Assembly (NCBI GenBank): GCA_030431715.1
Contig: JAUIIO010000022.1
Span: 1-64,000, forward strand
Length of the DNA: 64,000 nucleotides
Direction: 5' to 3'
From: a bacterium
Lineage (GTDB): Bacteria; Bdellovibrionota_C; UBA2361; RFPC01
The notes under the pieces are model-generated. The model had not been told where the DNA came from, ran no database searches, and saw only the letters and a list, made by a program, of their open reading frames with translations. The stretch's first letter is position 1. The number at the start of each line of letters is the position of its first letter. The position numbers and the translations under genes are program-made. Of the stretch, positions 1 to 20,400 are shown one piece after another.

Positions 1-83
1 ATAGCCCTTCCTACAAAAAACGAATAAGAATTATTACAGGTCTTCTCTACGCGGCGCTGCGTAACTATGCTGTGCAATAAGGA

Positions 84-1340
84 CTAATAGCGCTCTGCGC
101 TTGTACCTTTTATAATAGCCCCAGCAACATCTGAGGCTCCACCTTTCTGCAGGTTCTTCATGCCCTCAGTAGCACCCTCATGTGTTGGATCTAATCTCAG
201 CGCCTCAGAGAACTCAAATCTAGCATCTTCAGCCCTTCCAAGAGTAAGGTAAAGTTTTCCCATCCCTGTATGATACGTTGGATTATCAGGACACAGTCTC
301 AATGCACGACGGTAATAAAAAAGCTTATCTGCGGTATCACTCGCACTCATCGCTTGTTCAATCTCAGACTTCGCATCCTGACATTCAGCAGACACCGGCA
401 TCACTTCTTTTACAGTACCCTTTGTAGCAACCTCCTCGGGCTTATCAAAGGTCTGACCATGCTCAATTTCTTCGAAAGCAGGTCTAGGTGCGCTCCCGTC
501 CTCAAGCCTGATATTACTCTCTTCAACCGTATTGTCTTGAGGTACAGAGTTGTCAACTGCTGCGCGGAGATCATTTGCATCTCGATCTTCACCATAAAAA
601 GCTGGCTCTACAGCTCCGATATTGTTCCCTGTATCTTGCGCGAAATCGACAGGGGCTTCTCTAACCGAACTTGGCTGGCCGCTATTTGAAGCTGGATTCA
701 CTTCTGGACTCTTAAAGGCCTTTAAGCGCTGCTCACGTGCTTCAAATGTATCTATAGTGCTCTCAGAGGGAGGATCAAACGCATGAAACGAGTTGTCATA
801 AGCCATGGTCCTTGACCGATCATCTGAGGAAGTGCCGCCCCACCCAGAAGAAGTAGAGGCCCGTTGCGAGGGAGATTCTCCCTGCGGACGCAAATGTGCG
901 GGAATCTTAAGGGGACCAGCCGGTACGCGCACCATACCAGGGCGGGAAGAGTGTCCAAACGGCTCCCCGTAGCGAGCCCGCGGAGAATTTTCACTGCTCG
1001 CATCAAAAGCAGGACTATCTTGGGAAAGATCTCTAAGATCACGAATTTCTTTTTGTTGCGCCCTCAGGAGCTGTTCTTGTCTCGCAATGGCTTCATCTTG
1101 ATTTCTTATGGCAGCATCCCTAGCATCGAACGCGTTTCCAATAGCGGCACCTGCACCAGCGCCTGCCAACGCACCAATGGCAACGCCAGCTCCCGGATCC
1201 CCAGTCTGGCTTCCAATAATAGCACCTAGCCCAGCTCCAACTGCGCCACCTCCTAGTGCTCCAGTTCGTGTGGCATCTCCCGGCTCAGCACAACCTGCAA
1301 GGACGACAAGAGTTACTACAAAAATTAGCAAACGGTTCAT
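84..1340 (-). CDS. Lipoprotein with glycine zipper and C-terminal TPR
   Basis: Predicted outer-membrane or periplasmic lipoprotein of about 418 residues. The start is placed at the methionine that opens a short hydrophobic signal (MNRLLIFVV) ending in a lipobox LAGC; the reading frame extends 7 codons further upstream, but that would bury the signal. After the cysteine comes a glycine/alanine-rich stretch with GxxxG periodicity (glycine zipper, as in YMGG/SlyB-type proteins), a short coiled coil rich in Q/E/R, a long low-complexity Ser/Pro/Asp linker, and near the C-terminus two TPR-like helical pairs containing ALRLCPDNPTYH and ALRLDPTHEG. It lies just downstream of a second small lipoprotein and of lspA, all leftward, and may be co-transcribed with them. 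Glycine-zipper lipoproteins often act in envelope integrity; the function here is not determined. Confidence 0.8.
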   Translation of the reverse strand: MNRLLIFVVTLVVLAGCAEPGDATRTGALGGGAVGAGLGAIIGSQTGDPGAGVAIGALAGAGAGAAIGNAFDARDAAIRNQDEAIARQEQLLRAQQKEIRDLRDLSQDSPAFDASSENSPRARYGEPFGHSSRPGMVRVPAGPLKIPAHLRPQGESPSQRASTSSGWGGTSSDDRSRTMAYDNSFHAFDPPSESTIDTFEAREQRLKAFKSPEVNPASNSGQPSSVREAPVDFAQDTGNNIGAVEPAFYGEDRDANDLRAAVDNSVPQDNTVEESNIRLEDGSAPRPAFEEIEHGQTFDKPEEVATKGTVKEVMPVSAECQDAKSEIEQAMSASDTADKLFYYRRALRLCPDNPTYHTGMGKLYLTLGRAEDARFEFSEALRLDPTHEGATEGMKNLQKGGASDVAGAIIKGTSAERY

Positions 1341-1369
1341 AAAAGCACCTCTTCTTATCAACGTAAACC

Positions 1370-1633
1370 TTATTGACTATCGTACGGCTCAATTGCCCTA
1401 TTATAGTACTTTTGTCGTTCCAGATCTTCGAGCTCACGCTGCTGACGCTCAAGCTCCAGCCGCTGATGTCTCATAATTTCATCCTGTCTTCTTAGTGTCT
1501 GATCACGGGTCTCTTCTTCGGTCGGTCCCTCTACATAAGACGAGGATGGTCCCGTTCTTTTCTGGCAGGCAGCGACTAAGAGCAAGACACTCAGCAGGGC
1601 TACGAAACGAATGGATTGCAATCTTATACGCAT
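1370..1633 (-). CDS. Small coiled-coil lipoprotein
   Basis: Predicted lipoprotein of about 87 residues. The start chosen is the methionine of MRIRLQSIRF, which gives a standard basic-hydrophobic signal followed by the lipobox LVAAC; the open frame continues 8 codons upstream. The mature part is almost entirely charged and helical (repeated E/R/Q with LERQQRELEDLERQ), so a short coiled coil is likely. It shares the coiled-coil style (RRQDEI, RQEQLL) with the larger lipoprotein immediately downstream, about 30 bp away, which suggests the two work together or arose from related sequence. I do not recognise a family. Confidence 0.7.
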   Translation of the reverse strand: MRIRLQSIRFVALLSVLLLVAACQKRTGPSSSYVEGPTEEETRDQTLRRQDEIMRHQRLELERQQRELEDLERQKYYNRAIEPYDSQ

Positions 1634-1684
1634 AGACACTTTTCCGGTAACGATCACTTAACGAGACAGATCATACACCATCAA

Positions 1685-2197
1685 CTACTGTTCTGTAACG
1701 GGTAAATCTTTTCTTTTTGCTGGGGAACGGAAAAGCAAAAAAACCACACCAATACAAATAGCGCTGTCGGCAACATTAAACGCCGGCCAGTGATAGTTAC
1801 GGTAGTACACATCCAAAAAGTCCACCACCTCTCCGATTCGGATCCTATCAAGAACGTTTCCTGCCGCACCACCAAGAATGAAGCCAAGAGCCATCTGAGC
1901 GAAACGATCGTGGTAATAATCATAAAAAAGAAAATACAGGACAACACACACGGCAAGGGCAGTTACGCCTCCGAGAAGTAACTGCCGCAGCCCGTCAGAT
2001 ACCCCCGAAAGCATCCCAAACGCCGCCCCTTTGTTGTAAGTCAACGTGAGGTTAAAAACCCCATCTATGACTGGCACCACTGTTCCCTGCCGTATCGTCT
2101 CTACGACAATATACTTGGTGTACTGATCAAGAAACACCACCAGCCCAACCGATAGCAGGAGTATTGCGCAGGTTTGCTTAAAAGGTATGCGAGTCAT
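1685..2197 (-). CDS. lspA: Lipoprotein signal peptidase II
   Basis: Inner-membrane aspartyl protease that cleaves the signal peptide of diacylglyceryl-modified prolipoproteins just before the lipobox cysteine. The length (170 residues) is typical. Four hydrophobic segments are visible. The conserved blocks FNLTLTYNKGAAFG (about 48-61), AAGNVLDRI (111-119) and FNVADS (140-145) are present, and the two catalytic aspartates are Asp117 and Asp144. Its start codon overlaps the stop of the upstream WD40 lipoprotein gene by four bases, which indicates translational coupling. Two small lipoprotein genes follow, so the enzyme is encoded among its probable substrates. Confidence 0.97.
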   Translation of the reverse strand: MTRIPFKQTCAILLLSVGLVVFLDQYTKYIVVETIRQGTVVPVIDGVFNLTLTYNKGAAFGMLSGVSDGLRQLLLGGVTALAVCVVLYFLFYDYYHDRFAQMALGFILGGAAGNVLDRIRIGEVVDFLDVYYRNYHWPAFNVADSAICIGVVFLLFRSPAKRKDLPVTEQ

Positions 2198-3423
2198 TTC
2201 TTTTTCGGCTCTTTCGGAACTACTTTCTGTAATTTTGATAGATCAACCTCAAGGATAGTACCCTCATCTGTGCCAGCAAGTATACGATCATTCCTCACAA
2301 ACACGACTTTTTGCGAATCAGGTATTTTAAACTCATATCGAAGCTCAAGCTCGGCTTTTTGCTGGTCAAGAAACTCATCGTGTTCAGACAGGACATCCCA
2401 AACCTTTACCGTATCATCACGACCATAAGTCAAAACGAGCTTACCGTTTGGGCTCACATCTAAAGCACGAATAAGTCCTTTGTGCGCGCGGGTAGATGTA
2501 AGAAGCTTGAAGCCTCGCACTTTCCACAATTCAATATCTCCACTCTCTCGAGCGGTCACTACAAAATTTCCGTCTGGCGATGCCCTAAGAGCGTCAAGCC
2601 TGACGCCTGTGCTATTACTAACGGGGGGAGATTTTACCTGCTGGCGAATTGCGAGATCGGAATAAAACTCCCCATCAAATATATTTTTGTCGTACTCGCC
2701 TTCATACACATCAGCATCATAGGGCAACCACGCAAAAAGCATTCCGGCCCAGTCCCCACTAAAAAAGACCCTGCCCTCTGGATGCACCGCTACCGAACTC
2801 ACTACGGTAGCGTGGCCGATATACCGCTGATATGCTCTATTTCTCTGATCTCCCACCTCAGAGTCCACCACCGTCTGATGTATAAGCCAGCGATAGACTC
2901 GCCCATCAACAGCCCCAATAAGCAAACTCTCCTCGTCTGGGAAGAATGCCAGTGAATGCACCCGGGATCTTACTCTGTCCATATGATAGAGCGTCTCCCC
3001 CGTCGGCACATCGATAACCTTTATCCCGTCCTTATTACCTATTGCGAGAAGACGCCCACTCCGGGAGAGAGCAACAGCCCTCAGGTGCTTCTCTTCCCCG
3101 GCGAATAAACGATATGCTTTTCCACTTCGCAGGTCCCACCTGAGCAGGGTACCGTTGTCTGAGACGGAAAAGAGAGCATCTGCCCTATCCCCCTGAAATG
3201 TAGGCTGTAAAAGGAGAACCGGGGCTAGATGCCCGCGAACTTGTGGGGCATCAGCCGGCAGCGGTAAGTTGCTGTTATCGTTAGTATCCTTATCCTTAAC
3301 CAGAATAGAGCTCTCTAAATCTTTACTTACTGTGGTATCGATACTAGAATTCGTATCTGCATACGGCGGCACACAGGCCGATAGCAAGAGGACAAGCAGC
3401 AGAACGAAGCTTTGTAAAACCAT
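2194..3423 (-). CDS. WD40-repeat lipoprotein
   Basis: Predicted lipoprotein of about 409 residues with a WD40-type beta-propeller. The start at 3423 is chosen because it begins a clean lipoprotein signal (MVLQSFVLLLVLLLSAC). The frame stays open to 3606, but the extra 61 residues are Cys/Pro/Gly-rich and would place the signal internally; the ribosome-binding site for either start is poor. After a Ser/Asp/Asn linker, repeats with the GH-to-WD pattern are visible, for example LFSVSDNGTLLRWDL, LLIGAVDGRVYRWL, VFFSGDWAGMLFAWL, VVTARESGDIELWKV, LVLTYGRDDTVKVWDV and ILAGTDEGTILEVDL, so a six- or seven-bladed propeller is likely. It overlaps lspA by four bases. A BamB-like scaffold role in the envelope is possible, but the repeats are WD40 rather than PQQ. 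Confidence 0.8.
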   Translation of the reverse strand: MVLQSFVLLLVLLLSACVPPYADTNSSIDTTVSKDLESSILVKDKDTNDNSNLPLPADAPQVRGHLAPVLLLQPTFQGDRADALFSVSDNGTLLRWDLRSGKAYRLFAGEEKHLRAVALSRSGRLLAIGNKDGIKVIDVPTGETLYHMDRVRSRVHSLAFFPDEESLLIGAVDGRVYRWLIHQTVVDSEVGDQRNRAYQRYIGHATVVSSVAVHPEGRVFFSGDWAGMLFAWLPYDADVYEGEYDKNIFDGEFYSDLAIRQQVKSPPVSNSTGVRLDALRASPDGNFVVTARESGDIELWKVRGFKLLTSTRAHKGLIRALDVSPNGKLVLTYGRDDTVKVWDVLSEHDEFLDQQKAELELRYEFKIPDSQKVVFVRNDRILAGTDEGTILEVDLSKLQKVVPKEPKKK

Positions 3424-4019
3424 ACCCTTACAAGAATTTCCAATGATGCATGAACCCGGGCCGCACAAACCCGGACGACATGAGCTTGGGCCACATGAGT
3501 CAACTCCCTGCCTTACCGCCGGGGGCCTCCCCGTCATGGCACAAGCAAAGGAAGGTCTTTCCCGGGGTGAAGTAATTATTAAAGCTTGCTCTTTTTTTTG
3601 CTTCATAGTGACTTTTGCATCATTGTGGTTGCTGGATTTGTAGTGGAATCAGACTCTCTCTCCTGAACACGTTTGAAAAACAACACGTTTGAGACCCCTA
3701 GTTTGATGCACTCTATCATTATGCACATTGGCATGATGCACAACGGCTGTTTGTACTGACAGAAACTCGCTATACTGATTGCAACTAGAACAGTAAAAAG
3801 CCAGCGCTGTCAAGAAACGTCAAAGGCGATACCATTACGGAGACGATGTCATTCTCGGACAACAAAAACCGTCTGAACTGGCATACGAGGACCGTATACG
3901 TGTAGTAACATTATTCATTCTCGCATTGAATTTTACTCACTACGCTACATGACCAGAGCTACATAGCTTATTTAATAAATGTATTAACTCAACCTTATGA
4001 AATAGGAACACCCCATAAG
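3424..4019. other. Divergent intergenic region
   Basis: Roughly 600 bases separate the leftward WD40 lipoprotein gene from the rightward pseudo-helicase gene. The first 180 bases can be read as an N-terminal extension of the WD40 frame. In the rest I see no convincing gene. There is an 11-base direct repeat AACACGTTTGA at 3666-3676 and 3682-3692 (16-base period), which could be an operator, and repeated ATGATGCA/TGCATCAT words near 3700-3740. Promoters for both genes should lie here, but I could not find a well-spaced -35/-10 pair. Confidence 0.5.
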
Positions 4020-5720
4020 ATGGACAAGGAAACAAACAAAGAAATAGCAACGCGCGTAAGCCCGGCGCTACTTGAAGGAAAAAACGTTTTTATCATATGC
4101 GAAAACCCCGTAGAACACACAAACACTCTACTAAACGCTTTCGCTGAGATGAAAAGTGACGGTGACAAGATGCTCATCATCATTCAAGACGAACAAAACG
4201 CATCAAGTATTCAAAAACTTGCCGAAGGATCAAAACTCTCAGTTTACGTTGAAACACCAACAGGAAAAGCAGGGGCGCTCGACGAGGCTGACATCATCCT
4301 CGGCACAACAGAAGAGCTTTTACTTACCATTCAAGAAAAGCCATTCACTGCTAAGCTCACAGCTTGCATCGGCTTTGTCGCCGGACGTGGCCTGCCCTCG
4401 GCAGAGCTTGAATCACTGCTCGAGAGCGCAGACTGTAAACAAGCCGCTTGGCTAAGCTCCGCTGCTCCACTTGCTCTCTCTTCACTCATTAACAAATATT
4501 TTAAAACCGACGGATGTGTAGAAATTAATATGGAACAGGAAAACGAATCAGGGCATGAAGCTAGCATAGAACACGTTTATTATGAGGTAAGCAGAGACTT
4601 GCTCTCCAAACCGAATGCACTTTGCGACCTCATTGATATTGCCGGTCGACCTCCAACACTCATCTATTGCAACCAACCATCTGACACTGATCTTATCGAG
4701 GTAATGCTTAAGAAAAGAGGCATTCTCGCTTCTAAAATGATCGGCCACGTCCCTGACAGGGCAGTACATGCGGCGGCACAGCAGATTCAAAACGGCGAGC
4801 TCCAAGTGCTCGTAGTCACTGATATCTCAGCTCAGAACATCCCAGTAGATGAGTTTGAAATGATTATTAACCACGCCACCCCCGAGGATCCAGAAGTCTA
4901 CCTTCACCGTCTGGGCACACCTTCGAGTGATGGGAAGCTGAAATCCATGATTAGCCTCGTTGGCGCAAACGATCTTGGAAACTTCCACTACTTAAAAAAG
5001 ATTGTAGAATTTGATTTCAAACAAAAGCAGCTTCCAACAGACGAAGAGAGAGCAAAAGCTCGGGTCCAGAACATTATCGACGCCGCGAAACAAAAAAGCG
5101 AGACGTTCGACAACGAAGTTCTCGCACTCACTAAGGAGCTCATGGCTTGTGACGCCACTGAGGAGGTACTCGCTCACCTTCTTCACAACACACTCAGAGT
5201 CATTCCAGAACTTGAGTCACAGCAGGGTAAAAAGTCTAGACGCTCAGACAGGAGACGTAACGATCGTTACGAATCTGACGACGATCGCTCACGCTCAGAT
5301 GATAATGACAGGTCATCAGGCAGAGACAGAAAGCGCGATCGCTCACGCGAGCGTGTTCAGCTTGAGCCTGCAAAAAAAGATGTACGCTTCTACCTTGGTA
5401 GCGGTTCTAGTGCTGGCATGACAGAAGAAGTATTAGAGAAGATTGTCTCTGAGCTTGACGTTGAAGGACTCAGCGAGTGGAAGCGTCACACTATCCGTGA
5501 GCTTTACTCCTTCGCTGACATTCCGGAAGAGAGCGCAGAAGAGGTTTTAGAAAAACTCAAAGGCTATAAGCTTAAGGACGGTAGCGAGCTTTACTGTTGC
5601 AAAGCCACTGAGATCCCTGAGCCAAGAAAGCCGATCGAGGAAAGCGAAGATAGTGAGGACAGCTCAAACAAAGAAGAGTCTGATGACGACTCAACTCTAG
5701 AGGCTTCAGCGTCAGCTTAA
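4020..5720 (+). CDS. Degenerate DEAD-box helicase-like protein with DbpA-type RNA-binding domain
   Basis: A 566-residue protein with the layout of a DEAD-box RNA helicase but without its catalytic motifs. Residues 1-180 resemble RecA domain 1: no Walker A GKT is present, the DEAD position reads FVAGRGLPSAELE (about 118-130), and the SAT position reads LSSAAPLA (about 149-156). Residues 210-310 resemble RecA domain 2 (TLIYCNQPSDTD, VLVVTDISAQNIPVDEF, YLHRLGTPSSDG), where the HRIGRTGR arginine motif is lost. A basic/acidic Arg-Ser-Asp linker follows (about 400-445), and then a domain matching the DbpA/CsdA C-terminal RRM-like fold (VRFYLGSGSSAGM ... SFADIPEESAEEVLEKLKG). The tail is acidic. The fold assignment is by motif order, and loss of ATPase activity is inferred. 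It probably binds rRNA or mRNA as a scaffold. It stands alone and ends at a bidirectional terminator. Confidence 0.75.
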   Translation: MDKETNKEIATRVSPALLEGKNVFIICENPVEHTNTLLNAFAEMKSDGDKMLIIIQDEQNASSIQKLAEGSKLSVYVETPTGKAGALDEADIILGTTEELLLTIQEKPFTAKLTACIGFVAGRGLPSAELESLLESADCKQAAWLSSAAPLALSSLINKYFKTDGCVEINMEQENESGHEASIEHVYYEVSRDLLSKPNALCDLIDIAGRPPTLIYCNQPSDTDLIEVMLKKRGILASKMIGHVPDRAVHAAAQQIQNGELQVLVVTDISAQNIPVDEFEMIINHATPEDPEVYLHRLGTPSSDGKLKSMISLVGANDLGNFHYLKKIVEFDFKQKQLPTDEERAKARVQNIIDAAKQKSETFDNEVLALTKELMACDATEEVLAHLLHNTLRVIPELESQQGKKSRRSDRRRNDRYESDDDRSRSDDNDRSSGRDRKRDRSRERVQLEPAKKDVRFYLGSGSSAGMTEEVLEKIVSELDVEGLSEWKRHTIRELYSFADIPEESAEEVLEKLKGYKLKDGSELYCCKATEIPEPRKPIEESEDSEDSSNKEESDDDSTLEASASA

Positions 5721-5763
5721 TCCGCTAGAACCCCTCGCATGTGAACTCTTCGCGTGCTCATAT

Positions 5764-5806
5764 AAAAAAGGGAGCCAACTACTTGTGTAGTGGCTCCCTT
5801 TTCTTT
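5764..5806. terminator. Bidirectional intrinsic terminator
   Basis: A long hairpin has arms AAAAGGGAGCCAACTAC and GTAGTGGCTCCCTTTT (one bulged base) and a TTGT loop. It is flanked by A-runs on the left and T-runs on the right, so it can stop transcripts from both sides. It sits between the convergent pseudo-helicase gene (+) and mltD (-). Confidence 0.85.
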
Positions 5807-5828
5807 TAGGAGTTGGAATTCTTCAAAG

Positions 5829-7553
5829 CTATTGCACTCGCAAGCGTTGTCCGATTTTAATCTTACTACTCTTCATTCCATTAAGTTTCTTTAGGGCACC
5901 GATCGTTATTCCGTGCTTCTTGCTAATCTCCCAGAGAGTATCACCGCTTCGCACCTTATAGTACTTCTTAGAGGAGGGTGAGGAAGAAGAAGAGGAGCTC
6001 GCCGGGGCCGTAGCTCCCTCGGCAAGGATGAGCACTTGACCAACATAGATCTTTGAAGAGCTTAGGCCATTAAGCTCACGTAACCGAGAAGCACTCATCC
6101 CGTATCTTTTTGCGATAGCATAAAGTGAATCCCCCTTTCTCACCCGGTAGCTTTTAGTTCCGGGTAATTTTTGAGGAGACTCAGAATACCTTGCTCGAGG
6201 CTTCACAATAAGAGATTGACCAACACGAAGATGATCGCCTTTTAAATTATTATAGGTGCGCAGCTTGGCAACGCTCGTCTTGTATTTTTTCGCAACACCA
6301 GACAACGTATCTCCACGACGCACCCTGTACACGATTCCTCCGTATACAGAACTGGCGGAGCTTTCAGCCTTTTGAGGCTTGATTCGCATCGAAGCTAATT
6401 CGTACTTATATTTCTGAGGCACTTTCAAGACATATCCGGCCGGAACATGATAGCGACCACTCCATACGCCACTTAAAAGTGCATAATTCACTTCTTTAAG
6501 ATCTTCTAGTGATACTCCAAGTTCTTTTTGAAGCGTACGTACAGATGTGGAGTGTTTGAGCTTCTTCCCAGCAATATAAACAGGTCTTGATGGTCGCACT
6601 TTTGGGAAATACCTAGGGATATCATCATAAATCTCAAGGGCTGCTAGAAATTCAGGGAAAAAGTTCTGTGAGGCAAATCCAAAGAGCTGCTTTCCACGAG
6701 TTTCGACAATTTTAGTAATATCACGAGTGCCGAGCTGCTTTACCTTCTTTGAAACGCCTCCCACGCCATGATTGTAAGAGGTTAAAGCCAATCCCCAGTT
6801 TCCAAGCCTTGAGTGTGCGCTCCTGAGATATTCAGCAGCACCTCGCGTTGCCGAGACTATATCTCTTCTCTCGTCGATAGCGCGGGTAATCTTCATACGG
6901 TGAGCACGCGCGGTGGCAGGCATAAACTGCCATATCCCGGCTGCCCCAACGGAGCTATACGCTTTATAATCAAACGACGATTCGACAAATGGCAGTCTTG
7001 TTAGCTCAACTGGCAAGCCAAACTCTTTGACAAAAATTTCTTCTAGCACATGCATATACCGGCCAGATCGCTCAATCGCCCCCTCATACCGCTCACGGAT
7101 ACCTCTCTGAGATCTTATAAGGTCCTCCTTTATCACCTCGCGGTATTTTGCAGTCCCACTCCCCAAAACGGACATTTCTTTCTCAATATGTCGTTCAAGG
7201 CTATTCTGAGGAGACTTCCCAGCTGCGAGATTCTTCAGAGCATGTACAATTGCGGCCTTACGTTTATTGTAAACACGGGCTCGATACTTATCGAGCGCCG
7301 CTTCGCTCATAGTATTTGCCTTATCTGAGAAATCGAGGGTCTCAAATTTGATATACGGAAAAGTTCTATGGTGTATAACTGCCTGAAACTTTCCATACTT
7401 AGAAAAAATCTCTTTCCAAAATTCCACCCGCGGCCGCATCTGCGGACTGACTTTAAAATCCGAATGCCTAGCCGGCGCAGCAAGAAGCGGATCTGCAAGC
7501 AGAACAAGAGCAAGAAAACTAAAATGGCAGAAAATTGTTAATACGCGCAGCAT
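5829..7553 (-). CDS. mltD: Membrane-bound lytic murein transglycosylase D with three LysM domains
   Basis: Cleaves the glycan strands of peptidoglycan to 1,6-anhydro muropeptides. The protein has 574 residues and begins with a signal peptide (to about residue 25, ending LLAAPA). The Slt/GEWL-type catalytic domain covers about 155-310; the catalytic glutamate lies in LPFVESSFDYKAYSS, followed by the family signatures GAAGIWQFMPATAR and ALTSYNHG. Three LysM peptidoglycan-binding repeats follow (YRVRRGDTLSGVAKKY, YRVRKGDSLYAIAKRY, YKVRSGDTLWEISKKH), with a Ser-rich linker before the last. No lipobox is visible, unlike E. coli MltD. It is the last gene of the leftward fdxA-dacB-mltD group, 40 bp after dacB, and ends at the terminator near 5785. 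Confidence 0.93.
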   Translation of the reverse strand: MLRVLTIFCHFSFLALVLLADPLLAAPARHSDFKVSPQMRPRVEFWKEIFSKYGKFQAVIHHRTFPYIKFETLDFSDKANTMSEAALDKYRARVYNKRKAAIVHALKNLAAGKSPQNSLERHIEKEMSVLGSGTAKYREVIKEDLIRSQRGIRERYEGAIERSGRYMHVLEEIFVKEFGLPVELTRLPFVESSFDYKAYSSVGAAGIWQFMPATARAHRMKITRAIDERRDIVSATRGAAEYLRSAHSRLGNWGLALTSYNHGVGGVSKKVKQLGTRDITKIVETRGKQLFGFASQNFFPEFLAALEIYDDIPRYFPKVRPSRPVYIAGKKLKHSTSVRTLQKELGVSLEDLKEVNYALLSGVWSGRYHVPAGYVLKVPQKYKYELASMRIKPQKAESSASSVYGGIVYRVRRGDTLSGVAKKYKTSVAKLRTYNNLKGDHLRVGQSLIVKPRARYSESPQKLPGTKSYRVRKGDSLYAIAKRYGMSASRLRELNGLSSSKIYVGQVLILAEGATAPASSSSSSSPSSKKYYKVRSGDTLWEISKKHGITIGALKKLNGMKSSKIKIGQRLRVQ

Positions 7554-7593
7554 GGAATCAGTGAGTAAGCGTTAAATGTTGCTCAGTACAGTA

Positions 7594-9030
7594 TTACGAG
7601 GAATGCAGGATGCGTACAAGCTTCTTTTCGACTGCACTCGCCTTAGCGCGGTATGGTATTTTATTCTGAAGGATTACAAAAGCATAATCTCGGCCAGAGC
7701 GCCCCTGAACAAGTCCCGCTAGGGTTCCAACGTTATTAATAGTCCCCGTCTTGGCCCTTACGGTTCCATCCATGTTTCTCTTACGGAGGGTTCCCCTCCG
7801 ACCATCCACAGAGAGGGAGTTTACAAACTCAGCGCCATAACTCTGGTTATTTCGCAACTCAAGGAGCACTTTCGACAAGGCCCTAGCCGTAATGCGGTTA
7901 TCATGACTAAGCCCCGAAGCATCGTGAATTGAGTAATCCGCCCTTGGCTCACCAAGCGAAGCAAGATGCGCTTCGAGCGCAGCGATGCCTTTTGCTCGCA
8001 CATACGTTGAGGAGGATTCCTTTCCTATAGAGACCAGAAGCTGCTCAGCTATAAAGTTACTACTAAAGTGATTTAAGTCTCTGATGATCTTAAAGAGCTC
8101 TTTGGATTGATGCGTGTATATTTTTCCGGCCCCACTAGGAACCTTCTTTTTTGTTGGGCCGCCAACAACATCAACTCCCAGTTTCTGCAGAATTCCTTTC
8201 AGCACGGCACCAGCATAAAGAGCAGGCGAAGCAACAGAACGATAAACCTCATCACACGCCTGACCACTCCTCATCGTACCCTGCAGGCGATAAACCATAT
8301 TCAATCCTTCACTACCTGGAAACTCATCAATGCCATACACATTTTTCCCACTAGAAACTGTCGTAATCTTACCCTTAGTTCCAACTATGTACTCAAAGGG
8401 ATCGTTAAAAACTCGCGCCGCCTTGCCAGGAGTTGTGGGACAAACTTCAAAGGTCAATGTATTAAAATTCAAAGAAAGAGCTGATGAAGCTGCTAGATAG
8501 GCTTTCTGCCCTCCACGTTCATGTGCACCGACAAAGGCGGTATCATCTACATAGATCTGGCCAACAGACCTCACACCGCGCATAAAAAGTTTGCGTGCCG
8601 CTAGCCACAGCTGCTCATGGGTAAAAAGTGGATCACCGTATCCCTTAATATAAAGTGCAGCTAACCGAGAGCCGGTAAACCCCTGTCCATAAAACTCTGT
8701 GGGAAATCGATGCTCAGGTCCTAATTTATCAAACGCAACCTTAGTTGTGAGGATTTTCAATACACTCGCTGGCTTAAGAGGCATCGCCTCTCGTTGTGCA
8801 TAGATTTTTTCGCCAGTCTTCGCATCGAGCACTACAAGGGAAGAAGAGTTGTTGAGTGGAACACCACGAGCAATCTGGCTATGAAGTGAAGACTTCTTGC
8901 TTTGGGCAGCGACGACGCCACAGGTGAACACACAAACGAATGACAGGAGGAATAAAAAACCGATTAGGCCATCTCTGCACACTGCACCAAATGAAAGATT
9001 TGTAGATTGCGCGCTTATTTTGCGGTGCAT
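7594..9030 (-). CDS. dacB: D-alanyl-D-alanine carboxypeptidase/endopeptidase (PBP4 family)
   Basis: Periplasmic class C penicillin-binding protein that trims or hydrolyses peptidoglycan cross-links. It has 478 residues with a signal peptide ending near residue 42. The three active-site motifs are visible: Ser89-x-x-Lys92 in PASVLK, SSN in [11 protein letters not shown], and KTG in [10 protein letters not shown]. The large insertion between the SxxK and SxN motifs is characteristic of the DacB/PBP4 family. The start codon lies inside the 3' end of the ferredoxin gene (16-base overlap), so translation of the two is probably linked. mltD follows, giving a small cell-wall remodelling group. Confidence 0.93.
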
Positions 9031-9356
9031 CTTAACTCGTCGAGTTGATCTTCGCCTAGCGCGGTTGTTTCTTCTTCATTAATGGCTACAAATTCTTGCT
9101 CATCATCAGGAACAGCAGAATCTTCGTAAATTGCCTCAACCGGGCACTCGGTTTCGCACGCGCCACAGTTGATACACTCATCAGGATGAATAACGAGAAG
9201 ACCGGCAGTTTCATCATCATCGTCACCATCAAAGGCAACGCCGTATTTCTCGTTATATTTCTTCTTTCGAATGTCGTAAAAACAATCAACCGGACACACC
9301 TCTACACAGGACCTGTCCTTTGTACCTATACATGGCTTGGTAACAACGTACGTCAT
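9015..9356 (-). CDS. fdxA: 7Fe-type ferredoxin with acidic insert
   Basis: Small electron carrier of about 113 residues. The start is set at [11 protein letters not shown] because that is the conserved N-terminus of the family; five extra in-frame codons lie upstream. The first cluster uses Cys9, Cys17, Cys21 and Cys25 (C-x7-C-x3-CP pattern), which is usual for the [3Fe-4S]/[4Fe-4S] group. The second is [12 protein letters not shown]. Between the clusters there is an acidic insertion containing GDDDDET, and the C-terminus is also highly acidic. The gene overlaps dacB by 16 bases, an odd functional pairing. The electron-transfer partners are not identifiable here. Confidence 0.9.
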
Positions 9357-9788
9357 GTAAACCTCATACAATCAATGGAAATCTCAACACTTTTGTTTGT
9401 CGATATTTGCACATAGTGAAGGATTTGGGGAGAGGCAGGCAAGGAATATTTTCATTAGTGGTTGCGGCAACCTGAAGAGGATTAACTACATACTTTCAGG
9501 TTGTTAGAGATAAAAAAAAAAGAGGCGACTCAATGAATTTTGAATCGCCCCCAACTCGCAGAAAGGATGGTGTCATGCCTACTATATAAAGAAATCGGCA
9601 CGATTTTCGTTTCTTTAATAAATGGGAGCACTTTTTCCTGCTCAAGAATTAAATTTTATTATCTAGTATTATCAGATGCTTATGATAGCGCCGCCCCCAA
9701 TATTTTCGCCTCAGAGCCTGAGTAAGTCCCCACATTGCATTTTTTAAGAGTCATATATAAGTTAAGTGTTCTCTAAACCCACTAACGT
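9357..9788. other. Intergenic region upstream of fdxA with two hairpins
   Basis: No protein gene is convincing in this 430-base stretch. It contains an inverted repeat CAACCTGAA/TTCAGGTTG (9468-9476 and 9495-9503) and a minus-strand terminator (listed separately). The bases from 9550 to 9788 have no gene on either strand that would use that terminator, so a short minus-strand RNA is possible. Confidence 0.4.
9512..9549 (-). terminator. Intrinsic terminator on the minus strand
   Basis: The arms GGCGACTCAA (9524-9533) and TTGAATCGCC (9540-9549) pair with one G-U. A run of ten A on the plus strand at 9512-9521 becomes a U tract for minus-strand transcription. There is no T-run on the plus-strand side. 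No minus-strand gene is seen to its right. Confidence 0.65.
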
Positions 9789-9862
9789 GGCCCGATCGCC
9801 AAGTTGGCTAAGGCAATGGTTTGCAAAACCATCATTCCCCGGTTCGAATCCGGGTCGGGCCT
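9789..9862 (+). tRNA. tRNA-Cys (GCA)
   Basis: A complete cloverleaf can be drawn. The acceptor stem is GGCCCGA with TCGGGCC, the D arm includes AAGTTGGCTAAGG, the anticodon arm is ATGGT-TTGCAAA-ACCAT with anticodon GCA (cysteine), and the T arm is CCCGG-TTCGAAT-CCGGG. The discriminator base is T and CCA is not encoded; the following bases are CTTTTTATT, so a short T-run may help end the transcript. The 3' end of this tRNA is repeated several times in the next 500 bases. Confidence 0.97.
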
Positions 9863-10400
9863 TTTTATTCGCTCGCCGCTCAGGCCAAGGAGAGGACTCC
9901 CTCTCCTCACTATGTTCGGTTCACCCTCCCGACACGGATTCGAACCACACAAGAACACAGTGAATCCGCTCAGCGCACCGCGCTGTGCTTCGGGTCGGGC
10001 CTTGTTTCCACCCCGTCGCTCGCTTTGCTCGACTCCTGCCCCTGAAATGGGCTAGCCCTAGAGCAAAGACACGGATTCGAACCATATAAAAACACAGTGA
10101 ATCCGCTCAGCGCACCGCGCTGTGCTTCGGGTCGGGCCTTGTTTTTCGCTCGCCGCTCAGGCCATGGGTCGTATTGCAGCGGCGCAAGCCGCAAAGTGCA
10201 ATACGAAGACTGCAAACGCGAGCTAGCGAGTGTTTGACTCCTTATACAACTCCCTCTCCTCACAGATGTTCGGTTCACCCTCCCGACACGGATTCGAACC
10301 TGTCGGGCGGAGCTCGACAAAACAACACTGTGAATCCGAAATTTCATGTAGTGAAATTTTTTAGGTCGGGCCTTGTTTCCACCCCGTCGCTCGCTTTGCT
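9863..10400 (+). repeat. Array of tRNA-end-derived hairpin repeats
   Basis: Downstream of tRNA-Cys the word GGTCGGGCCTT recurs near 9993, 10129 and 10364. Each copy is preceded by GAATCCG and a hairpin. The T-arm complement ACACGGATTCGAACC recurs at 9932-9946, 10069-10083 and 10286-10300. The hairpin between GAATCCG and GGTCGGG is CAGCGC/GCGCTG in two copies but AAATTTC/GAAATTT in the third, so the pairing is kept while the sequence differs. CGGATTC pairs with GAATCCG, and CCCGAC can pair with GTCGGG, giving a nested structure. Other shared blocks are CGCTCGCCGCTCAGGCCA (near 9870 and 10147) and CCCCGTCGCTCGCTTTGCTC (near 10011 and 10382). No protein gene is credible here. Confidence 0.8.
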
Positions 10401-10472
10401 CGACGCACAAGACCTCTAAGCAACTAAAATAGGAAAAACTACCAGACACCTCTGTCAAAATGCTCAGAAAAT

Positions 10473-10500
10473 TAATCCTTTTAACGTAACTTACCGATAT
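10473..10500 (+). promoter_or_regulatory. Possible sigma-28 (FliA) type promoter for flagellin
   Basis: TAATCCTT, 12 bases, then ACCGATAT resembles the flagellar sigma-28 consensus (TAAAGTTT, 11 bases, GCCGATAA). It lies about 175 bases upstream of the flagellin start, which would give a long leader. It is a motif match only. Confidence 0.35.
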
Positions 10501-10674
10501 ACCTACTGGGGTGTGCTGTTTACACCCGGGCTGATAGCACGAGTTCGTCAGGGATGGCGAATTGCACCTATTGTTTAAGGGGCAATGCTCAGCTCTATGA
10601 GAAGTATAAGGAAGTACTGTAGTGATAGTTGTTCATACACTACGAACATATTTGCGCATTGAGAAAGAGGGCCA

Positions 10675-12030
10675 ATGACAGTCACTCTCGGACTCAACAT
10701 ATCTGCCTTACGCGCACAAAACCAGCTGGCGAGATCGTCATCAGAGTTAAGCGATGTCTTTACTCGCCTAAGCTCAGGACAGCGAATTAATTCTGCCAGC
10801 GATGATGCCGCGGGCCTTGCAATATCTGAATCTCTCAACTCTGACTCTAGAGTTTTACAACAAGCAGTACGGAACACAAACGACGGTATTAGTTTACTAA
10901 ACATCGCAGAAAGCGCCCTTAGTGAAGCAAATAATATACTACAACGACTAGAAGAGCTTAGTATACAGGCCGCCAATGGCACCTATAGTGACGAGCAACG
11001 TAATGCGCTTGATGTAGAAGCTCAGGCGCTATCAGAAGAATTTTCTAGAATACTAAATAGTACCGAGTTTAATGGAAAATCATTGTTCTCAACTGAGCCC
11101 GGCGGAACGCATTTACAGATTGGACTAAGATCCTCTGACTCTTTAAATATTGAATTTCGCGACGAAACAGTCATAACCGAGGGAGATGGTACCTATAATG
11201 ACGAAACATTTGATGAATTTGGAAGTTCTCCTGTCTCCGGCCCAGCACTCGCTATCGCAGATTTTGACAGTGACGGACTAGACGACGTCGTTTATGCACA
11301 ACTCGGGAGCTCCGCCGGCTCCACAGACATATATGGGGGAGTGGTAATTGGCTCAGGCGGCTCTTCTTTTGCAGAGATTGATACCTTTAATGTCTCTACA
11401 ACAGCTGGCGTTTCACCGGGGAATCTCTACATTGGAATTACTGACTACGGAAATGATGGCGATCTTGATATCATCTTTCAATCTGACAGCGGAGCACCTG
11501 GATACACTATCGGTGAGAATGATGGTAGTGCCAACTTCACATTCACTTCATATACAGCCGGCACTCTCATCGGTAGCGGAGGAACGACAAGCGCAACTGC
11601 GAACTTTAACAATGATGGAGTAGACGACCTTGCAACTGTCTCCAGTAGTGGCAGTGTCGTCACTCTTACAATGTCTGTCCAAAACACACAGGACAGAGCA
11701 GGCTATGAATCACTCGAGCTAGATACATTTTCTCTACAGACCGCAAGCGAGGCACTAACAGCAAAGGGCATTTTTACTACAGCTCGCGACTCAATCCAGG
11801 AGCTCCTAGGGAATATAGGTGCAACCCAGAGTAGATTAGGATCTATTATTACTCTCAATGAAAGCACCTCTGAGCAATACTTAGCTGCCAGAAGTCGTAT
11901 TATCGACGCAGACATTGCTGCGGAATCTGCGCGCATGATTCGTTTCCAGATACTACAACAAGCAGGCGCCGCCATATTAGGTCAGGCCAACCTTCAACCA
12001 CAACTGGCGCTACAGCTACTAAGAGAGTAA
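10675..12030 (+). CDS. Flagellin with FG-GAP-like central domain
   Basis: Filament subunit of 451 residues. Residues 1-150 match the flagellin N-terminal D0/D1 helices (NISALRAQNQL, RLSSGQRINSASDDAAGLAI, LEELSIQAANGTYSDEQR). The last 100 match the C-terminal D1/D0 (GATQSRLGSIITLNE, RIIDADIAAESARM, ILQQAGAAILGQAN). The exposed middle (about 165-340) carries three calcium-loop motifs typical of FG-GAP/VCBS repeats: DFDSDGLDD near 196, DYGNDGDLD near 258 and NFNNDGVDD near 310. That suggests a small beta-propeller-like or Ca-binding surface domain. The start is supported by AGAGGG just upstream and by the usual flagellin N-terminus. No other flagellar gene is in the window. The D0/D1 assignment is firm; the surface-domain function is inferred. 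Confidence 0.92.
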   Translation: MTVTLGLNISALRAQNQLARSSSELSDVFTRLSSGQRINSASDDAAGLAISESLNSDSRVLQQAVRNTNDGISLLNIAESALSEANNILQRLEELSIQAANGTYSDEQRNALDVEAQALSEEFSRILNSTEFNGKSLFSTEPGGTHLQIGLRSSDSLNIEFRDETVITEGDGTYNDETFDEFGSSPVSGPALAIADFDSDGLDDVVYAQLGSSAGSTDIYGGVVIGSGGSSFAEIDTFNVSTTAGVSPGNLYIGITDYGNDGDLDIIFQSDSGAPGYTIGENDGSANFTFTSYTAGTLIGSGGTTSATANFNNDGVDDLATVSSSGSVVTLTMSVQNTQDRAGYESLELDTFSLQTASEALTAKGIFTTARDSIQELLGNIGATQSRLGSIITLNESTSEQYLAARSRIIDADIAAESARMIRFQILQQAGAAILGQANLQPQLALQLLRE

Positions 12031-17458: not shown

Positions 17459-20400
17459 ATGAAGAAACATGGCCTGCGCACCGCATTAATCTTTCTCATC
17501 CTTGGGCTATCGCTCGGATTCGGACTCAAAGTATTTGAAAATTACCTCGAGCAAGAACTTACCGAAGTTCTGAGAGACGAAGTACTCAAGGCCTGCCCAG
17601 ATTGCTCCTTTGAAGTAGAGGAACTTCACCTTTCACTTGTAAGTCTGAGCGGACGTGCCTATCGGGCTAGAGTGATCAAAGGCGGAAAGGACCAACTCAT
17701 GGTAGAGGAAATGAGGGCCACCTTTGGCCTGAGCCAAATCCTTAAGAGAACCATTGATCTCAAGACTCTAGAATTTCATAACGCTTTCTCTGAGCAGGTG
17801 GATCCACGAAGCACGACGTTTCAAGTGATTGATGGATTCGCCTCCTCGGATCCAAATAAAAAAGAAGAGCCAAAACTCAAAGTAAACCTTCTCAATCTCA
17901 CCGTACATAACGGAAAGTTTAAGCAGAAGCTCGGAAGCGGCACTCTGCTTGGACGAAACGTATCGCTTGATATAACCAGAAAGGATCCGAGCACACTCAT
18001 CATAAAACCGCATGTTGAGCGGATCATCTACAAAGGACGAGGCACCCGAGAATCTTACGATGTAGGTCCCGCGGATGCTGAACTGTCTGTGACTGAACAA
18101 TCTCTGCGGGTTCTAAAACTCCACATTGGCGAAGGAAGATCCTTTGCAAATAGCACAGACTTCGTTTACTTCGACAAAGACGACACGATTCAAGGTAATG
18201 TTCGCTTGCGACTTGAGAAAGGTTTGAGAGTATTTGCTCCGCTCATCAATGAACCAATTACTGGGGAGATAGCACTATCAGGTACGATTCAGAACCCGAC
18301 TGCTAAAATGCAGGTTCGCTCTAAGGAATCAGATCAGGTTACTACAGCATCTCCCATTACTCTCCTCGACAATAATCTAACCGGCAAAATACAGGTACAT
18401 GCGAAGCACGTTACACTTGAAGGGCTACACGCTCTTGAGAGCAACGCAACGGTTTCCATCGGGGGCACATCAGGTTCTCCTACATTCAGCATACACGGAT
18501 CCACCCAAAACGCTCTTTACGAAGATCTCTCCTTTGGCGCCCCCCTTACATACGACCTGAGCATTGGTGAGAAGATAGATTTCACTATTCTCCAATCGGA
18601 ATACGGGATTGAGCGCCTCTCCGCGCAAGGCACGCTCAAAGACAATGGCAAAAATCTCTCCATTGTAAAAACGAATTTCTCCCTCCATAACTTCATCCTC
18701 AGCACAGATGCTACACGCAAAGGAAAAGGTCGGGAATGGGCTAGAGTCTCGGGGAGTGGCACATTTTCTGGTGAGCTTCTTTTTCAAAACATAAAGGGAG
18801 ATGCCACTCTTAGCGTAAGTTCTCCCGACTTCGCTGGCGATGCTGCGGTAACAGGAAGTACAACGCTAAGACAGGGCATTATAACCAGCTCTTTGAGTAA
18901 CACCTCGCAAAGTCTTCTGAGCGATCTCTACCTCGACCTGAGTAGCAAAACAAAGAGCAAATTTAAAGTCGTCCTTAACGATTTCCAACCTGCCGATTAC
19001 GACGATAGGCTGAAATGCTTTACTGCTACCGCCTCTGGCGAATACACTTTTCATATAGATCAATTCACCTCTGGTAATGGAAAGATAGAGCTTGAAAAGC
19101 TTATTGGCGGATGCCCTCCTGAGCAAACTCGCCTCCTTAAAAAGACACAACTCCCAATACGTTCTGGAATACTCACCCTCCCTTCCGTCAAACTTCAGGG
19201 AACGAATACAGAGGTCACAGCACAGGGAAGCGTTTCCTTTGCTGACGGCTATGATTTATCGGTAAATGGCTCCGTATATTTGGCCTCACTCCTGCCACTG
19301 GTGCCAGGCGTTGATGACCTGAGCGGCAAAATTAATACAAGAGTGCTGCTCCAGGGAGATCTGGCATCTCCTCAGCTCGAGGGAACAGCAACACTTGAAA
19401 ATGGACGCGCCTCTATTGAATCAGCAGGCATAAATGCCGAAAAAATAGCCGCTCGAGTCGATCTTAAGAACGGCCAAATCGTTGTTCAGGAAAGCAGTGG
19501 AGAAATCAACGGCGGAACTTTCCAACTCACCGGGAACATCAATCCGACGCAAGAAAAACTCTCAACTCTAAGCATGGTGTTTCAAGATGTCGTTTACGAT
19601 CCACTTCGAGATGCTGTGCTTACGCTTTCAGGCGATCTCAACTTTGAGTTCAGAAGCCAGCAAGAGCCACGAATTTACGGAGAGGTAGAGGTAGACGGGG
19701 CGCAGATCGAAAAGAACTTCGATCTCTTAACCTTCATTGAGGATATCCCCTCTCTCATTCTCGGCTCCAGCCAAAAAAACAATCCTGACACCCAGCGTAC
19801 AGATAGAAAATCTAGGCCAATACTTCTCGATATCTCTGTATTTGCTAGTAGAAACGTTTTTATTCTAACCAATCTTCTGAGCGCTGAACTTAAGGGGGAC
19901 TTTCGAATTACAGGTAGTGTGCGACGACCTATCATTAATGGCACTCTCTCAACGCTGGGCGGTTGGTTTGGTCTTAAAGAAAGGAGATTTGATATCACCT
20001 CAGGGCAAATTTCATTTTCTCCCGTCATCCCACAGCCCAATCTTGAGCTCCTCGGAGAAACATATGTGAGATCGAGAGCAGGTGATAACGTCCTCATTCT
20101 CCTTGAGGCTACAGGTCCAATAACCACACCTACTATCACTCTGAGTTCTGACAGAGGCCTGAGCCAGAGAGAACTCTTAACCCTCCTTAGCTCAGGAGCA
20201 GATCTCACGACAGGAAGCGTACATTCGAGAGCAGAAGATCTTGAGCTGGAAGAACGACTCAGGGAAGGAGGAAGCTTCCTAGAAAGGTCTATGCGATTCC
20301 TACGTACGATTACTCGTATAGATCTACTTACCCTAGAACCTCAATTCAACACAAGACGGGGTCAACTTGAGCCTACTCTCATCGCTGAGAAGAAAATCAT

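Follow-up and report, generated by a model that had tools for sequence, protein, structure and literature searches.

The accepted picture of DEAD-box proteins is that of RNA clamps gated by ATP, and a gene that keeps the outline of such a protein without its ATPase motifs raises the question of how it arose and what its product could still do. The gene considered here lies in a bacterial window (the whole stretch of DNA analysed, 64,000 nucleotides), where the frame at positions 4020-5720 of the plus strand begins with ATG and runs uninterrupted for 566 aa. The first-pass annotation had described the product, hereafter P0001, as a helicase-shaped protein with two traceable RecA-like domains, a charged Arg/Ser/Asp linker and a C-terminal DbpA-type RNA-binding domain, and we recovered each of these parts. 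The gene, its domains and motif positions, and its conserved surroundings are as follows.

1685-2197, minus strand: lspA (signal peptidase II), which belongs to the conserved neighbourhood (synteny)
2194-3606, minus strand: WD40-repeat gene, a divergent neighbour kept across the phylum (synteny)
4020-5720, plus strand: pseudohelicase gene encoding P0001 (566 aa); supported by its open frame, by the conservation of orthologues and by purifying selection on them
4020-4553, plus strand: degenerate RecA1 domain, residues 1-178; matched to active RecA1 by profile comparison
4098-4121, plus strand: Walker A position, now CENPVEHT, residues 27-34; aligned with AxTGSGKT of active orthologues
4371-4388, plus strand: position of the motif II LDEADE, now GFVAGR, residues 118-123; residue-by-residue alignment
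4554-5054, plus strand: RecA2 domain, residues 179-345; Pfam Helicase_C (2.3e-10), PDB matches, conservation
4899-4928, plus strand: motif VI position, now YLHRLGTPSS, residues 294-303, with the second and third Arg lost; residue-by-residue alignment
5055-5225, plus strand: helical region after RecA2, residues 346-402; alignment, and helices in a low-confidence model
5226-5369, plus strand: Arg/Asp/Ser-rich linker, residues 403-450, with 18 K+R and 13 D+E; sequence
5370-5627, plus strand: DbpA/CsdA-type RRM-like RNA-binding domain, residues 451-536; PF03880 matches in the family, profile matches to RRM structures
5628-5717, plus strand: acidic tail, residues 537-566, with 12 D+E and 2 K+R; sequence
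5766-5802: strong stem-loop terminator between the P0001 gene and the convergent MltD-like gene; RNA fold
5829-7553, minus strand: LysM/MltD-like gene, the convergent neighbour in the window's family (f1) and some other families (synteny)

The RecA2 domain is recognisable directly from sequence. A Pfam scan of P0001 placed Helicase_C at residues 197-299 (E 2e-10) and did not find the DEAD domain. The NCBIfam DEAD-box RNA helicase models CshA, SrmB and DbpA were matched through RecA2, as were many DEAD-box structures in the PDB (eIF4A-III best, at 1.5e-13; also CshA and DbpA). In P0001 itself the Pfam DbpA domain appears at residues 491-519 with an E value of 1e-3, under the curated cut-off; 14 of 15 family members match PF03880 at E<=0.01, and the family RRM profile matches the YxiN/DbpA RNA-binding domains 2g0c/3moj and other RRMs. 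In most genomes of the order PF03880 occurs once, in the pseudohelicase gene. A single-sequence AlphaFold model of P0001 had low confidence (pLDDT 39), showed helices in residues 346-402 and was left out of any fold search. The terminator, a stem-loop followed by a T-run (dG -25.4 kcal/mol, z -5.7), was unlisted by a simple scanner.

The N-terminal domain required profile-profile comparison. The f1 N-domains alone matched active RecA1 with 95% probability, co-linear over 170 columns; adding further pseudohelicase members, with two transitional ones left out, gave 97.8%, and the full range was 95-99%. Control comparisons of the same profile with RecA2 and RRM gave 1%. On this profile evidence the N-terminal domain of P0001 is RecA1-derived, and across residues 1-330 we find RecA1 and RecA2 homology rather than a different fold.

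Alignment with active orthologues indicates how much of the motor has gone. In addition to the changes at Walker A and motif II, the Gln of motif Q is replaced by A, motif III reads SSA in place of SAT, the Arg of QxxR (IVa) is Val, and HRTGRTGR of motif VI has become HRLGTPSS. P0001 has therefore lost motifs Q, I, Ia and II, the IVa Arg and the arginine fingers of motif VI, and with them three hallmarks of an active DEAD-box protein: Walker A with the motif Q Gln, DEAD with SAT, and the HRxGRxGR fingers. The earlier claim that all motifs are replaced holds for the ATPase motifs and fails for motif IV Asn218, motif V Thr267-Asp268 and the first motif VI Arg (Arg297), which are retained. A literal DEAD at residues 88-91 (4281-4292, plus strand) was considered as motif II and rejected, as it directly precedes the motif-Ib strand (DIILGTTEEL, compare RVVVGTPGRL). 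By its motif content, without P-loop, DEAD or arginine fingers, P0001 is excluded as a DEAD-box ATPase, and we infer from these losses that it has no ATPase activity.

We then examined relatives in the window genome and its kin, with the order represented by 28 genomes and the phylum sample by one class of 45 draft genomes. An orthologue of P0001 is present in 25 of the 28 order genomes, and for the window's own family (f1) the nearest relative is 44% identical. Scanning genome contigs with P0001 alone returned only a 23% match from Tissierellia, and no relative was found in viral contigs. The losses are common to the order: in none of the 25 orthologues is Walker A, DEAD, QxxR or HRxGRxGR complete. 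The QxxR Arg is kept in 0/25, the second motif VI Arg in 2/25 and the third in 0/25, and the sites that persist in P0001 are nearly universal (motif IV Asn 25/25, motif V Asp 25/25, motif V Thr 24/25, first motif VI Arg 25/25). Some members are transitional. L014 (f2) has APAGSGKR, one letter off a P-loop, with LDNLSL replacing LDEADE; L037 (f7) keeps LTEFQ of motif Q; motif VI of L015 is still HRMGRTGN; and Pfam DEAD still matches 2 of 15 pseudohelicase family members scanned.

Loss has gone further in many of these genomes. RecA1 is decayed but present in 11 of the 25 orthologues. In the other 14 it is deleted, and the protein begins directly with RecA2 (as in MEHIYFEVGTSLLAKPQALCDL), often downstream of a plausible ribosome-binding site. 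A tblastn search of DNA upstream of these short forms found no RecA1 relic. On the RecA2+RRM tree the presence or absence of RecA1 requires at least seven state changes, and we read the deletions as several independent events, a reading tempered by the poor support of several deep forks. Within genus g14, decayed RecA1 occurs in L019 and L020 and is absent from their sister L027 and the remaining members. Since RecA1 is deleted in 14/25 orthologues, sequence comparison identifies this lobe as dispensable and repeatedly removed.

The pseudohelicases of the order form one clade, with support of 99/94 in the RecA2 tree and 100/100 in the RecA2+RRM tree, and this clade includes a long-branch member of the class (L071). 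Its neighbours on the trees are active helicases that carry the same RRM and belong to other families of the phylum (L030-L032, L034, L035, L065-L070), and a single step accounts for the switch between active and inactive states. Gene order agrees. A conserved block of lspA, in some genomes a gene of ~1100 aa, and the WD40 gene lies divergent from the helicase gene, and the lspA-WD40 block accompanies active forms (L103, L105, L106, L108, L110, L111, L117; some contigs carry part only), decayed forms (the window, L085-L089 and others) and forms without RecA1, among them the outlying L115 and L116. The active f18 genes L104 and L112 have different neighbours. The orthologues that retain a working P-loop, at the lspA-WD40 slot, all come from other families of the phylum and represent the ancestral state. 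Because pseudohelicases and active forms share both a tree neighbourhood and the WD40-lspA slot, an active RRM-bearing DEAD-box helicase was most likely dismantled in place. The neighbours serve as a signal of orthology and give no functional hint.

Several other observations were made along the way. At the WD40 locus of G031 (L074, L116), RecA2 is almost unrecognisable and the RRM resembles that of active forms. Elsewhere in the window, a tRNA gene at 9789-9862 (plus strand, Rfam 61 bits) is the sole Rfam match within positions 1-12000. A flagellin-like ORF at 10675-12030 (plus strand) has, by eye, conserved flagellin ends that flank an FG-GAP/VCBS-like stretch (SPVSGPALAIADFDSDGLDDVVY...), and an ORF of 1849 aa occupies 17459-23008 (plus strand).

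Whether the remaining protein is maintained was assessed from conservation and dN/dS. Mean between-family identity of RecA1 is 14% among pseudohelicases versus 58% among active forms, compared with 43% versus 71% for RecA2 and nearly equal values, 36% versus 39%, for the RRM. We used the simple Nei-Gojobori method and did not rely on the many saturated pairs (dS infinite or > ~1.5); because dS is saturated within f1, the selection estimates come from orthologues and not from the window gene itself. In the closest unsaturated pair (L023/L025, dS 0.7-0.9), dN/dS is 0.03 for RecA2, 0.19 for the helical region, 0.08 for the linker and 0.06 for the RRM. The pair L022/L026, near saturation with dS > 1.3, gives 0.01 for RecA2 and 0.03 for the RRM. 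As estimated from these codon comparisons, RecA2, the Arg-rich linker and the RRM are under purifying selection in the orthologues. Arg456, Tyr458, Gly460, Gly462, Arg493, Phe498 and Asp500 are invariant among them. The RecA2 of the clade also has residues of its own: Pro220 in 24/25 (Lys in 20/21 active forms), Lys239 in 25/25 (Arg in 19/21), Gly242 in 24/25 (Ser in 21/21), Asp290 in 24/25 and Asn321 in 24/25. Such a signature suggests a new use of this lobe rather than mere relaxation.

These data bear on the view that the gene is a functionless, decaying pseudogene. The low identity of RecA1 between pseudohelicases, down to 14%, would fit such decay, but the view is refuted for ORF 4020-5720 by the open frames of 25 orthologues within a single order, by low dN/dS and invariant residues, and by the gene's own terminator, and we regard it as extremely improbable. 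The first-pass annotation had likewise set a decaying pseudogene aside, and its view of P0001 as a pseudo-enzyme gains support from losses common to the order and from selection on the orthologues.

What P0001 does can be approached through its parts. In the open state of the DEAD-box protein Mss116, it is RecA2 that recognises RNA duplex (PMC4383044). The pseudohelicase RecA2 may no longer bind RNA, because the Arg of the RNA-contacting QxxR is lost in 25/25 orthologues. The reported binding site of DbpA is hairpin 92 of 23S rRNA, and domain resemblance to DbpA/CsdA points to a putative rRNA target for P0001 as well; DEAD-box proteins of bacteria that carry the DbpA domain have been grouped in this way (PMC8190605). 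Both roles put forward earlier, a ribosome assembly scaffold or a partner of an active helicase, are putative. We lean towards the reading that an active RRM helicase decayed in place to give P0001, which would now bind RNA independently of ATP as an assembly factor or adaptor, a function that we infer. The RRM would anchor the protein on structured, probably ribosomal, RNA, and the basic linker would contribute non-specific RNA contact. RecA2, no longer half of a motor, would serve as a fixed docking module, its partner being either an RNA duplex or a protein that belongs to the ribosome under assembly or to the machinery that processes RNA. P0001 would work as an assembly factor, a chaperone or an adaptor and would exchange without ATP.

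The chief rival holds that P0001 is a putative regulatory partner, which in the manner of a cofactor lends its RNA-targeting RRM in trans to an active helicase core, either recruiting that core or stimulating it. An active paralogue, which the first-pass annotation had advised looking for, exists: the window genome encodes the active DEAD-box helicases L001 (CsdA-type, with a canonical RRM), L002 and L003, and L001 is a conceivable partner. As a second RRM helicase in this genome, L001 also makes redundancy possible there, a point against the assembly-factor reading. Many order genomes also carry X-core (L040-L054), an active close paralogue with the full motif set and without an RRM, which beside the RRM-bearing pseudohelicase would make a complementary pair; Utp25, moreover, has been proposed as a helicase cofactor (PMC9539457). 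X-core is present in families f2, f4, f6, f7, f8, f10, f11 and f13, but is absent from f1 (all five genomes), f3, f5 and f9, where the pseudohelicase persists, and the pseudohelicase gene is not linked to any helicase gene. We therefore consider a partner role rather unlikely. More intimate cooperation, in which RecA2 and the RecA1 of another protein rebuild an ATPase in trans, could account for the RecA1-less forms. It was rejected for P0001 on the loss of motif VI, and with the second and third Arg of that motif and the QxxR Arg so rarely or never kept among the 25 orthologues, and a Gly and an Asp of motif V mostly changed, its probability is very slight. A sensor, with the cleft between the lobes remodelled to take another nucleotide or ligand, would explain why 11/25 members retain a decayed RecA1, and why that lobe is constrained in L019/L020 (dN/dS 0.18, at dS 1.67). 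RecA1 has, however, no conserved motif between families and is deleted in more than half of the orthologues, so that no shared ligand site lies there, and we find this quite improbable.

Returning to the assembly factor or adaptor, its closest known counterparts belong to the DbpA/CsdA (DeaD)/YxiN subgroup, which shares the RecA1-RecA2-linker-RRM order and of which the same-locus orthologues in the phylum are complete members. Unlike these, the P0001 family has no ATPase motifs and a degenerate or deleted RecA1, and would not act as an ATP-driven helicase. The X-core paralogues belong to the same subfamily by tree and differ in their full motif set and absent RRM. Utp25/Def of the yeast SSU processome is, like P0001, DEAD-box-derived, with non-working motifs and both lobes recognisable in many members (PMC9539457). 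It differs in being eukaryotic and of separate origin, in having an N-terminal accessory region instead of a C-terminal RRM and in keeping both lobes, whereas the P0001 family has often lost RecA1 and has active orthologues that persist at the same locus. PriA of Deinococcus radiodurans is likewise a bacterial helicase conserved despite lost ATPase and helicase activity, but it is a DNA replication-restart helicase and not a DEAD-box RNA helicase (PMC4504706). In the literature searched, which covered few subscription journals, the published cases are Utp25 and PriA, with one further paper using the word pseudohelicase a single time, and we found no bacterial DEAD-box pseudohelicase.

As far as that literature goes, this would be the first DEAD-box pseudohelicase family from bacteria. 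We put at about even the chance that the whole order swapped an ATP-driven RRM helicase, in place, for an ATP-independent RecA2-linker-RRM RNA assembly factor, with RecA1 later discarded several times independently. A single chromosomal slot holds the complete enzyme in some genomes, a version whose motor has decayed in others and a version lacking half the motor in others still, and the RNA-binding end is common to all. If our reading is true, this natural deletion series would indicate which of its parts a DEAD-box protein still needs once catalysis is gone, and the role of a RecA2 lobe and RRM without ATP becomes directly testable.
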